Assembly: GCA_017521285.1 (NCBI GenBank) | Contig: JAFXDG010000019.1 | Location: 1 to 57,820, forward strand | DNA: 57,820 bases | Reading direction: 5' to 3' | Origin: Bacteroidaceae bacterium | Lineage (GTDB): Bacteria > Bacteroidota > Bacteroidia > Bacteroidales > Bacteroidaceae | Part shown: piece by piece, positions 2,072-56,935 of the stretch | Numbering within the stretch: position 1 is the first letter of the stretch | Layout of the letters: each line of letters begins with the position of its first letter | Position numbers and translations under genes: made by a program | Notes under the pieces: model-generated | What the model was told of the DNA's origin: nothing | Databases searched by the model: none | The model's input: the letters and a program-made list of their open reading frames with translations, nothing else

Positions 2072-2189
2072 GAACCTGCTTACTTTTTCATTTCATGTCG
2101 TGAAATGTTCATTTCACGCTTTGGAATGAGTATTTCACGACGTGAAATATTCGTTTCGCGACGTGAAATAAAGAAGTAAGCAGGCTCTT
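2072..2189. repeat. Quad-palindrome element 1 (outer inverted repeat with four palindromic units)
   Basis: Outer arms CCTGCTTACTT (2075-2085) and AAGTAAGCAGG (2174-2184) are perfect complements. Between them lie four consecutive ~19-22-base palindromic units of the theme TTTCACGaCGTGAAA: near 2090-2108, 2109-2130, 2131-2151 and 2152-2170. The third is ATTTCACG-A-CGTGAAAT. The element lies in the 762-base gap between sufD and the ATPase gene. Two elements with the same plan but different sequence occur at 31165-31317 and 56826-56935. Confidence 0.8.
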
Positions 2190-12810: not shown

Positions 12811-13040
12811 CATTTACCATTTACCATGTACAATGTACCAGTCAGAAAAAGCCGTCATTTCATTTTTCAGACGCGGATGGATTGGTTTCAGGTTTCAGGT
12901 TCAAAGTTCAAAGTTCAAGGTTCAAGCCATCAGCCATCGCCAACTGCCATCGCCAACTGCCATCGCCATCAGCCATCCGCCATCGCCCAAAGTTCAGATC
13001 ACCTTCCCAATTGTACCTTGCAAATGGTAAATGGTACATG
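12811..13040. repeat. Nested word-iterated inverted repeat
   Basis: The outer arms CATTTACCATTTACCATGTA (12810 onward) and the block ending GCAAATGGTAAATGGTACATG (13020-13040) are imperfect inverse copies. Inside are a partial CAGACGCGGATGG (12869 onward), iterated GGTTCAAAGTTCAAAG words, and iterated GCCATCGCCAACT words. It fills the whole convergent gap between the membrane protein and the S41 protease, so it may terminate both transcripts. Confidence 0.7.
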
Positions 13041-14846: not shown

Positions 14847-15152
14847 AAAACGCTGAGACGCAGAGGCGCAGAGATTCTTTCCATTCGATAGAGAGCATCC
14901 AGAGTGCGCAGAGATTTGACAGACAAGTCTGCCTCCTCAAAATGCCCGTAGGACGTTTTACACTCCAAGTTTCTATTAAACTCTAAAAAAGAGGCCTCTG
15001 CGTCTCGGCGTCTCGGCGTTTTTATTATCAGTTACAACAAAAGGATTATCCCCCCTTTTTCACGCAGCTTGCTGCATTGACCAACACAGCTGGCTCCGAT
15101 GGCCAACGCAGCTTGCTCCATCGGGCATCGCAGCCAGCTGTGTGAAAAAGGG
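14847..15152. repeat. Two inverted repeats in the 470-base gap upstream of the S41 protease gene
   Basis: The gap 14706-15175 has no gene. Arms 14847-14873 (AAAACGCTGAGACGCAGAGG...) and 14995-15023 (CCTCTGCGTCTCGGCG...) form one long inverted repeat around 120 bases. A second stem pairs 15053-15069 (CCCTTTTTCACGCAGCT) with 15136-15152 (AGCTGTGTGAAAAAGGG), with internal repeats of GCAGCTTGCT between. The second stem lies 24 bases past the stop codon of the 15176-17284 gene and probably serves as its terminator. Confidence 0.7.
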
Positions 15153-15175
15153 CAATTCTGACACGGGACGGAGAA

Positions 15176-19667: not shown

Positions 19668-19765
19668 TGGGTTCAAAGGTCTAAGGTCAAAGGTTGATGC
19701 GTTGAGGGGATTCATCGCCATCAGCCATCGCCATAGCCATCGCCATCAGCCATAGCCCAAAGCCC
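19668..19765. repeat. Word-iterated repeat, inverse copy of 2450-2570
   Basis: GGTTCAAAGGTCTAAGGTCA..., GATGCGTTGAGGGGATTCAT, and iterated GCCATCGCCATA words match the reverse complement of the block downstream of sufD. It sits immediately past the GH30 stop codon. Confidence 0.75.
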
Positions 19766-21457: not shown

Positions 21458-21531
21458 GCTTCAGTAGCTCAGTTGGTTAGAGCACATGACTGTTAATCAT
21501 GGGGTCGTTGGTTCAAGCCCATCCTGAAGCG
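21458..21531 (+). tRNA. tRNA-Asn (GTT), copy 1
   Basis: A 74-base cloverleaf. Acceptor stem GCTTCAG/CTGAAGC, D stem GCTC/GAGC, anticodon loop CTGTTAA with anticodon GTT, T loop TTCAAGC. CCA is not encoded. One U-U mismatch is present in the T stem as drawn. Confidence 0.95.
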
Positions 21532-21578: not shown

Positions 21579-21652
21579 GCTTCAGTAGCTCAGTTGGTTA
21601 GAGCACATGACTGTTAATCATGGGGTCGTTGGTTCAAGCCCATCCTGAAGCG
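21579..21652 (+). tRNA. tRNA-Asn (GTT), copy 2
   Basis: Identical in sequence to copy 1 and separated from it by 47 bases. It probably shares the same promoter at 21391-21421. Confidence 0.95.
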
Positions 21653-21697: not shown

Positions 21698-21905
21698 GTT
21701 GAGGCGTTGAAACGTTCGACGTTGAGGCGTTCGACGTTGAGACTAATAAACCTATCAACGAATAAACCTATAAACGCATCAACGAATAAACCTATAAACG
21801 CATCAACGAATAAACCTATAAACGCATCAACGAATAAACCTATCAACGAATAAACCTATCAACGAATAAACCTATCAACGAATAAACCCATCAACGAATA
21901 AACGA
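21698..21905. repeat. Tandem repeats (24-mer and 16-mer) in the rnhB leader
   Basis: GTTGAGGCGTTCGACGTTGA-type words (21698-21742) are followed by three copies of a 24-mer (AATAAACCTATAAACGCATC + AACG) and about four copies of a 16-mer (AATAAACCTATCAACG). The 24-mer equals the 16-mer plus 8 bases. The array ends 9 bases before the rnhB start codon and may vary in copy number. Confidence 0.85.
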
Positions 21906-21914
21906 ACAAACAAC

Positions 21915-23091: not shown

Positions 23092-23263
23092 GGATAATTT
23101 GTTAATGTGACAATGTGATAATTTGCTAATGTGCTAATTTGCTAATGTAGTAATTTGATAATTTGTTAATGTGATTAATATACTAATGCCGCATGCCCCA
23201 TTGACCCATTGACATATTGGCACATTAGCATATTGGCACATTGGCATATTAGCACATTACCCC
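23092..23263. repeat. Word-iterated inverted repeat between porV and ispF
   Basis: The left half iterates TAATTTGCTAATGTG words; the right half iterates their complements (CACATTAGCATATTGG). Together they could fold into one long imperfect stem covering the whole gap. No gene. Confidence 0.75.
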
Positions 23264-31080: not shown

Positions 31081-31164
31081 GGCGCGAACTGACATAAAGG
31101 ATAAATTCCTCCCCTAACCAAACCTGAACAACCCTTCTTTCATCCCCCCAAAGCCCTATTCCTT

Positions 31165-31317
31165 ATGCATAGGAGGCTCGTTTCTTGAACCGCATCACAA
31201 GGGTAATACGCTTTTATCACATTGGTGATACGATTGTCTGACTTGGGTAATACGAACGCATCACTCTTGTGATATGGTTTAAGAAATTAGGATTCCACCC
31301 ATAAGAAACCTACTTTT
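31165..31317. repeat. Quad-palindrome element 2
   Basis: The outer arms GTTTCTTGAACCgCATCACAAG (first ~20 bases from 31180) and CTTGTGATatGGTTTAAGAAA (31267-31287) are near complements, with a further CTTATG/CATAAG pair outside. Between them are four units on the theme ATCACnnnGGTGATACG at about 31191, 31213, 31235 and 31256, each 18-22 bases. It lies in the convergent gap between the GH28 gene and mnmD. The plan is the same as at 2072-2189; the sequence is different. Confidence 0.75.
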
Positions 31318-31346
31318 AAAGGAACTCCTCACGGCTTTCTATGAAA

Positions 31347-56124: not shown

Positions 56125-56748
56125 CTACCTTCTCCTCACATACACCTTGTGGGTTCTGCTTCCTTCGTAGGTGATGCCGCTTTCGGGGTCGTTGCGGAAG
56201 GCTTGCAGCTCCAGGGTGGCGGCAGTGCGCGACAGGCCCGTCAGCGACACGTATTGCGCGATGTTCATGGTCGCGTGATTGTCCAGATATTCCAAGGCAC
56301 GGGCCAGGCGCTCTTCACGGGTATATTTCTGCTTGCGGATGCGTCGGGTAGCACCGCGTGTCAGGGTACAGTTGTAATTCGTGTCGCGGATAAGTTTCTT
56401 GTCCGGTCGGAAATAGACGTCCGTCACCTGCAGGCTCTGTGCATTGAGGCTTGGTTTGCCGTCGTCCAACCCGTCCATTTCCTTACCGCGTTTGAGGCCG
56501 ATACCGGCACGGAAAGTACCCAGTCCGTCAATCGTCACACTGTGTCCCAGTGCCATAGCTACCGCCATCTGGTGCGTGATGTGTTTCAACACACTTTCTA
56601 CGTGTTTCGTGATGAACGGGTCAGCATTCTCCAACCATTCCAAAAACTGCTCGTGCGTGAAATGCAGATTGCGCTTCATGCGGTAATAGACTTTCTTCTC
56701 GCCGGTGCCGTGCAAGTCACTCATTTCTTGCTTGATATACTCTGCCAT
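56125..56748 (-). CDS. HU-family DNA-binding protein, HU-HIG type, with C-terminal extension
   Basis: 207 residues from ATG 56748 (MAEYIKQEMSDLHGTG). An upstream start at 56814 adds 22 residues unlike the family. The N-terminal HU-like domain (FTHEQFLEWLENADPFITKHVESVLKHITHQMAVAMALGHSVTIDGLGTFRAGIG) is of the long Bacteroidales type. A Lys/Arg-rich C-terminal region (about 150-207) contains a helix-turn-helix-like segment (MNIAQYVSLTGLSRTAATLELQAF). These proteins are probably nucleoid or regulatory DNA-binding proteins. It is located upstream of the sigma unit on the same strand. Confidence 0.82.
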   Translation of the reverse strand: MAEYIKQEMSDLHGTGEKKVYYRMKRNLHFTHEQFLEWLENADPFITKHVESVLKHITHQMAVAMALGHSVTIDGLGTFRAGIGLKRGKEMDGLDDGKPSLNAQSLQVTDVYFRPDKKLIRDTNYNCTLTRGATRRIRKQKYTREERLARALEYLDNHATMNIAQYVSLTGLSRTAATLELQAFRNDPESGITYEGSRTHKVYVRRR

Positions 56749-56825: not shown

Positions 56826-56935
56826 TTAAAACTTTAATCAGCAGTGTTGATTATATGATTAGCAGTGTTGATTATGTGATTAGTACTGCTGATTATGTGA
56901 TTAGCAGTACTGATTAAACTTTTCACTTCGCTCAG
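56826..56935. repeat. Quad-palindrome element 3
   Basis: The outer arms AAAACTTTAATCAG (56829 onward) and CTGATTAAACTTTT (ending 56932) are near complements. Four units on the theme ATTAGCAGTnnTGATTATGTG start at about 56836, 56858, 56879 and 56900, each 20-22 bases. It lies in the 370-base divergent gap between the HU-HIG gene and the GH106 gene. Confidence 0.8.

Follow-up and report, generated by a model that had tools for sequence, protein, structure and literature searches.

Tandem palindrome arrays associated with genes of HU-HIG DNA-binding proteins in Bacteroidales

Intergenic arrays of short tandem units are associated with the genes of HU-HIG DNA-binding proteins in Bacteroidales. 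We followed these arrays from a window of 57,820 nucleotides of a Bacteroidaceae bacterium, the whole stretch of DNA analysed, which is an entire contig (C40) of a genome of 3.38 Mb in 141 contigs, 86% complete. The nearest named relatives, from one protein compared, are Bacteroidaceae metagenome-assembled genomes from the gut of roe deer, goat and sheep. The arrays are likely to be cognate operator or nucleoid sites of a diversifying HU-HIG family, as position, enrichment and a covarying period point to binding by these proteins. HU and IHF, textbook examples of architectural proteins, bind DNA with little to moderate sequence specificity. HU-like paralogues that each have their own phased palindrome array would represent a novel form of regulation or chromosome marking among common gut bacteria, and the arrays offer a testable partner for two questions, namely the targets of HU-HIG proteins and the satellites that keep their length and not their sequence.

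Architecture and period of the arrays

The arrays of the window and the adjoining HU-HIG gene are listed here by position.

2072..2189, unstranded: E1 array, member of a dispersed family, between sufD and an AAA/DUF4143 gene; outer arms CCTGCTTAC.. on the left and ..GTAAGCAGG on the right
2090-2169: E1 units, four of 21 nt, TTTCACGACGTGAAA family
15042..15159, unstranded: fourth array, same architecture with a 22-nt period, CAGCTGGCTG palindromes
31165..31317, unstranded: E2 array, outer arms and four degenerate 22-nt units; single copy
about 31194-31276: E2 units, ATCACC.AGGTGAT-like
56125..56748, minus strand: HU-HIG gene (product P0005, 207 aa), HU-like domain and C-terminal winged helix; lies immediately downstream of E3
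56826..56935, unstranded: E3 array, between the HU-like gene and an opposite-strand gene; outer arms AAAACTTTAATCA.. on the left and ..TGATTAAACTTTT on the right
56835-56916: E3 units, four of 21 nt, TAATCAGCAGTGCTGATTA family

E1, E2 and E3 lie where a sequence-only reading of the window had placed them, and each is one long imperfect inverted repeat built of tandem units. Direct repeats are spaced by 21 and 21 nt in E1, 22 and 22 nt in E2, and 21, 21 and 21 nt in E3. All three elements fold beyond dinucleotide shuffles, with z of -12.2/-11.3 on the two strands for E1, -7.5/-2.4 for E3 and -5.0/-6.4 for E2 (31160-31325 folded). That reading also held that the three share no sequence similarity, and indeed a whole-genome DNA search with each never retrieves another. 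The fourth array was absent from that reading's list of elements; in the fetched sequences its close kin lie at L035, L043 and at two places in L056. An Rfam scan of the window returned two tRNAs only, and no known structured RNA above gathering score at the arrays. The two tRNA genes (21458-21531 and 21579-21652) have identical scores and lie a short way upstream of a long array of 24-nt repeats. Intergenic DNA of the window is also rich in arrays of 24 nt and of 7-9 nt and multiples, apparently of a different kind (for example 21746-21911, 23093-23258, 12926-12987, 19713-19764 and 2396-2565). A hairpin scan at a loose stem threshold gave 420 hairpins and is too permissive to serve as a count.

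E2 has far more degenerate units than E1 or E3. We infer that it belongs to the same class by architecture only. No HU-HIG gene adjoins it and no kin was found in any sequence fetched; in the whole-genome DNA search E2 matches itself only. It is flanked by two convergent 3′ ends, those of a GH28-type gene and of a methyltransferase gene (Pfam Methyltransf_30), the latter of which we take to be MnmD-like. At the E2 site, relative L109 carries another 22-nt array, with four units by eye and a related core (TTCACCTTGGTGAA-like), and relatives L107 and L108 have no such array.

The period of these arrays stands out in intergenic DNA. Arrays were scanned by lag autocorrelation in 84-nt windows at z of at least 5, using a sample of the window's own genome made of 60 stretches and the window itself (61 records, 878,563 bases, 101 kb intergenic, about 26% of the genome). 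The sample yielded 106 hits, 58 of them at period 20-24 (17 at 21 and 32 at 22), versus 1 hit of any period in two dinucleotide shuffles together, an excess over chance. For 80 named Bacteroidales loci (102 kb intergenic), period 20-24 is observed in 18 of 44 hits, 14 of which are at exactly 22, and two shuffles gave 7 hits altogether. Palindrome scores of z at least 5 accompany 27/58 (own genome) and 10/18 (Bacteroidales loci) of the period 20-24 arrays, compared with 5/48 and 5/26 of the hits at other periods. The idea of a constant architecture with changing sequence is therefore real and extends to other Bacteroidales beyond the window, with the reservation that the unit number is not constant across the class.

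Arrays at HU-HIG genes

The HU-HIG family (PF18291) was reportedly described by Burroughs et al. in 2017. Its members combine an HU/IHF-type domain and an N-terminal beta-hairpin with a winged helix in some cases and a Gly-rich tail in others, and about 15-30 such proteins are encoded per genome in the three genomes counted. P0005 belongs to this family with 49.7 bits against a curated cut-off of 26.2, and its family profile matches IHF-beta (1ihf_B, E 1.2e-5). The predicted monomer (pLDDT 82.9, pTM 0.51) comprises the N-terminal beta-hairpin, the HU core and the winged helix. Its best structural match, and the nearest solved structure, is the PF18291-family protein 4fmr of Bacteroides vulgatus (BVU_2165; E 6.4e-5), followed by HU/IHF. 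Our searches of open-licence literature listed no paper on a DNA target of the HU-HIG family, and none linking HU-HIG genes with tandem palindromes.

We counted an array as upstream if it had a period of 20-24 at z of at least 5 and lay within 420 nt of the start codon. The window's own genome has 21 PF18291 matches; leaving out three cut by contig ends and three canonical-size HU genes, 15 were tested. Controls were all sampled ORFs of 120 aa or more with the HU-HIG genes left in, which works against the enrichment claim. Upstream arrays are present at 9/15 HU-HIG genes and 48/519 control ORFs (Fisher 3.0e-6). The enrichment persists against control ORFs whose upstream intergenic DNA spans 84 bp or more (50/395, p 3.7e-5) and after removal of the two discovery genes (7/13, p 7.3e-5). 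It is also observed in B. heparinolyticus DSM 23917, at 13 of the best-scoring 15 of 22 HU-HIG matches versus 8/116 controls (p 6.5e-11), and in B. cellulosilyticus DSM 14838, at 7 of the best-scoring 15 of 29 matches versus 11/125 (p 6.2e-4). Several close paralogues among the tested HU-HIG genes do not count as independent samples. At z of at least 7 the counts are 7/15 in the own genome, 11/15 in B. heparinolyticus and 3/15 in B. cellulosilyticus (control counts refer to z of at least 5). The canonical-size HU genes of the own genome have an upstream array in 0/3 cases.

Position relative to the gene is asymmetric. For the 45 HU-HIG genes of the three genomes, arrays lie upstream of 29 and downstream of 6, with 24 genes having an upstream array only and 1 a downstream array only. 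Strong downstream arrays of period 20-21 (z 8.8-13.2) occur at L308, L316, L318 and L321 in B. heparinolyticus and at L311 in B. cellulosilyticus. Array-less HU-HIG genes are found in all three genomes; 6/15 in the own genome and 8/15 in B. cellulosilyticus are without an upstream array at z of at least 5, and the array at the own-genome gene L289 falls just under the threshold (z 4.65). Among control ORFs the array rate is 2-9%, and therefore most arrays are not beside HU-HIG genes. By eye, the HU-adjacent arrays L315, L317, L323, L328 and L330 are direct repeats with little palindrome. Outside the window's order, four short HU-HIG genes (0/4) and 14 other loci, which were canonical HU genes or loci whose reading frame could not be opened, had no upstream array, with 18 of 28 new loci tested.

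Of the P0005-type genes, 17/17 tested in 12 genomes, at 35-94% identity, have an upstream array, in a count made of these genes alone. These are 17 of 20 loci, P0005 itself and two weak matches being left out. The period is 21 in 15/17, 15 of the arrays end 74-107 nt before the start, and several sequence types are represented. E3-type arrays adjoin P0005 orthologues in genomes G005, G006 (two places), G014 and G004. An HU-HIG paralogue has E1-type arrays beside it in the own genome (G000, contig C77) and in G014. We regard P0005 as the likely cognate binding protein of E3-family arrays.

A likely mechanism can be assembled from these patterns. An HU-HIG gene is in most cases preceded by its own array (29/45 tested), usually palindromic, with units 21-23 bp apart. 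This spacing equals two helical turns, so that HU-HIG dimers would occupy neighboring units along the same face of the helix. The array at its own gene probably lets an HU-HIG protein regulate itself. Some paralogues additionally have dispersed copies, as in the E1 and E3 families, many of them located upstream of other genes, and these probably serve regulation or nucleoid structuring. The core of the units is paralogue-specific and changes quickly, all units of an array changing together, with the N-terminal hairpin as its putative reader.

Dispersed families, unit number and alternative origins

The genome has E1 at 14 places, including the site upstream of the HU-HIG gene on contig C77, and E3 at 13 places and in one fragment, with 10 complete copies and three cut at contig ends. 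Contigs C51, C60 and C100 begin inside an E3 array. As the assembly breaks at E3 repeats, copy numbers are probably underestimates. In a set of 41 genomes, the own included, E1 is present in 3 and E3 in 7, all of the window's genus.

The sequence-only reading had described exactly four units per element, and this is the rule within E1 and E3. Ungapped alignments give four units in 14/14 E1 copies and 10/10 complete E3 copies, and E2 has four degenerate ones. For the class as a whole, four is not the rule, and 'always four units' was rejected as a class law since automated counts range from 3 to 10 with a peak at 4-5. Beside the 29 HU-HIG genes, there are arrays of 3 (four arrays), 4 (ten), 5 (five), 6 (three), 7 (five), 9 (one) and 10 units (one). 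The 56 arrays of the own sample, a count that leaves out 2 sub-periodic arrays, have 3 (10 arrays), 4 (16), 5 (14), 6 (11), 7 (4) and 10 units (1), and the 17 arrays of the P0005 group have 3 (1), 4 (7), 5 (7), 6 (1) and 7 (1). Many of the extra units are edge units near threshold, and the automated counts are inflated. Unit number depends on method and threshold, because counting palindrome centres gives fewer units than counting repeats when units are degenerate; by centres, four units are obtained in 9/18 arrays of the P0005 group, and by eye four in most. The wide spread of unit numbers that was to speak against the proposal is thus seen across the class and is absent within E1 or E3.

The dispersed copies have no single genomic setting. 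E3 copies lie between divergent genes in 6 cases, tandem genes in 3, convergent genes in 0 and at an edge in 1, and E1 copies between tandem genes in 8, divergent in 3, convergent in 1 and at an edge in 2. These orientations reject a transcription terminator as a general role; among E1-E3, just E2 lies between convergent ends. There are 32 neighbor genes that face an E1 or E3 copy with their 5′ end, and among the 10 chosen for profile scanning no common function was proven. Scanned E3 neighbors include MacB/FtsX permeases, an ABC ATPase, a penicillinase-repressor-type regulator, a sigma-70-family factor and a glycosyltransferase. The E3 copies L067 and L071 and the E1 copy L093 are upstream of MacB/FtsX-type permease genes. 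Additionally, the gene at L069 starts with the same residues as that at L067, and a fragment at L070 is similar, without a Pfam match.

One alternative, which we regard as unlikely, is a role in RNA. The array would be part of the 5′ UTR of the HU-HIG mRNA or form a free hairpin, and binding of the stem by the HU-HIG protein or a processing enzyme would give autogenous control of translation or stability. HU binds structured RNA, the predicted hairpins are strong, often on both strands, and the median distance of 94 nt from array end to start codon (29 HU-HIG genes) possibly places the array inside the leader. Tandem palindromes, however, yield long hairpins automatically, the arrays have no Rfam family, and dispersed copies lie between tandem, divergent and, once, convergent genes. 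Across the 14 copies of the E1 long hairpin, 88.5% of cells are paired versus 87.2% in shuffles, a weak excess, with 11-27 of 500 shuffles reaching the observed values for paired cells (11), double-sided cells and covariation score (27). Nine of the ten E1 pairs with double-sided changes are in the outer arms and the tenth is in a linker, and this excess is a point in favor of RNA. The core behaves differently: the four local palindromes of E1 show no covariation excess (score reached by 270/500 shuffles), and the E3 long hairpin has fewer compensatory changes than each of 500 shuffles. Support for a selected fold is therefore at most weak and restricted to the outer arms, and the pair counts in E1 and E3 reject an RNA or cruciform fold as a selected feature of the core. 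The earlier suggestion of a structure-defined system is left unsupported there, and the covariation analysis proposed with it bears out the E1 outer arms weakly and nothing further. The letters themselves are conserved among copies, in keeping with recognition at the level of DNA sequence.

Slightly less probable again is that the arrays are miniature mobile elements that resemble MITEs or REPs, contain internal satellites as BrickBuilt does, are spread by an IS or Y1 transposase and lie near HU-HIG genes through insertion preference or co-transfer. The dispersed copies of E1 and E3 are 80-98% identical and have inverted ends, the two families are confined to one genus among the 41 genomes, the E2 site differs between relatives by presence and absence, and the arrays form mosaics with other repeats. 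The sole Y1_Tnp (PF01797) match of the genome (C45:37306-37563) lies about 3.7 kb from an E1 copy (C45:41276-41369). In the aligned flanks, however, no target-site duplication was seen by eye, and E1 and its closest copy have 414 bp in common, which exceeds the element. An array at all 17 P0005-type genes tested, in 15 cases ending 74-107 nt before the start codon and with changing sequence, points to a conserved site and not to repeated insertion. A dispersed module (GTCAACTTGCTATACAAATAAGACG...) adjoins several E1 copies (L090:1300-1490, L094, L101, L095 and L092) and is also present at L279, and in G006 its end abuts the left side of an E3-type array; it is possibly the end of an insertion element that favors arrays.

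Neutral origin by template switching at palindromes and slippage in relaxed intergenic DNA, which could account for the many 7-9-nt arrays (104/268 noncoding tandem-repeat loci of the own intergenic DNA) and for concerted change across units, is highly improbable given the sharp 21-23 period, the constant unit number in E1 and E3 and the strong enrichment 5′ of one gene family.

Paralogue specificity and known repeat systems

By eye, arrays at different HU-HIG genes of the own genome differ in sequence. Of ten such arrays (z of at least 4.65) compared with the 26% genome sample, six have dispersed kin (L284, L287, L288, L289, L295 and L297) and L280, L285, L293 and L296 have none in that sample; an AT-rich hit at L281 was left out of the kin count. 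In B. heparinolyticus, kin were seen only beside other HU-HIG genes, and in B. cellulosilyticus 2/7 arrays have kin in the sampled stretches, with four further partial matches genome-wide for the L317 array. Array spacing tends to follow protein type. Arrays of 23 nt are present beside some HU-HIG genes. For 20/29 genes (null 9.7, p 4e-4) the array period matches that of the protein nearest in sequence, and for 16/29 (p 0.02) when the nearest protein is restricted to other genomes.

Core sequence can change while the rest of the array is kept. In three G006 orthologues that are 90-94% identical to P0005, the E3 arms and linkers are kept and the core is swapped, with ATCG(A/T)CGAT standing in every visible unit where E3 has AGCAGTGCT-like letters; a contig end truncates the third locus. 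This change across the whole array looks like concerted change. The earlier idea that arrays are built by a copying process survives to this extent, as the G006 core differs throughout the array. Residues fixed but different between the two core groups are 9, 10, 13 and 19 (M=1; 10, 11, 14 and 20 in model numbering), all in or next to the N-terminal hairpin loop and none elsewhere, winged helix included. The loop is modelled at low confidence (block mean 62), and a single orthologue group underlies the link between core and N-terminus. Similarly, seven close B. heparinolyticus paralogues have a common 23-nt period and similar linkers with different cores, three of them nearly identical (by eye).

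A broader hypothesis, which we offer tentatively and rate at somewhat under even odds, is that HU-HIG expansion created orthogonal protein-DNA identity systems. Each N-terminal hairpin would read the core of one array of phased palindromes, which labels its own gene and a set of private loci. Array and protein would diversify jointly through concerted core swaps, yielding 15-30 channels per genome without cross-talk. If true, such HU 'channels' would serve gene silencing, chromosome architecture or self/non-self marking, and would also explain satellites of constant length and free sequence, perhaps BrickBuilt included.

The constant-length satellites are the subject of a paper said to be by Subirana and Messeguer, 2020. 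The arrays share with them a noncoding location, a unit of 20-22 nt, several families per genome and unrelated sequences. In the part of the work by Subirana and Messeguer considered here (PMC8161180), noncoding tandem repeats of 20-21 nt are described in many bacteria, with several families per genome and no conservation between families, and the authors consider a protein polymerising on DNA, or small transcripts. That part names no partner protein from genomic position, whereas the arrays here are tied to HU-HIG genes; nor do the corresponding parts of PMC8161180 and PMC6749651 mention palindromes (CRISPR aside), hairpins or 'Bacteroid-', whereas the arrays here are mostly palindromic.

The nearest named Bacteroidales element known to us is the BrickBuilt MITE of Porphyromonas gingivalis (Klein et al. 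2015, PMC4596501, considered in part), of which ATCC 33277 has 19 dispersed copies. It is intergenic, with a 23-nt tandem unit, predicted long stem-loops and a mention of dyad symmetry, and the table of that paper shows its shortest copy, BrickBuilt_14 (84 nt), flanking a PF00216 DNA-binding protein gene. The part of PMC4596501 considered does not use the word 'palindrome' or propose a link to HU-like genes. BrickBuilt has a leader and a tail with IS5-like ends, and copies of 84-991 nt with widely variable unit number (PMC4596501, same part). In contrast, units are 21 nt in E1 and E3 and 22 nt in E2, complete copies of E1 (14/14) and E3 (10/10) have four units without internal gaps, and in 70-nt flanks of the 14 E1 and 10 E3 copies the short arms are all that is common to every copy. 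Other repeat modules adjoin some E1 and E3 copies.

REP/BIME sequences with their RAYT transposases are likewise dispersed palindromes, one or two together, with one copy beside the gene of the cognate protein. The outline is alike, whereas the partner here is HU-like and not a Y1 transposase, and the units number about four and are phased. The own genome's one PF01797 match (E 1.8e-6) is not adjacent to the nearby E1 copy.

A further observation concerns the C-termini of HU-HIG proteins. The motif GTGSNPL follows a Gly/Ser-rich tail in 11/18 HU-HIG proteins of the own genome (L282-L284, L286-L292 and L294), and GGQGENPLG is C-terminal in 8/15 of those of B. heparinolyticus.
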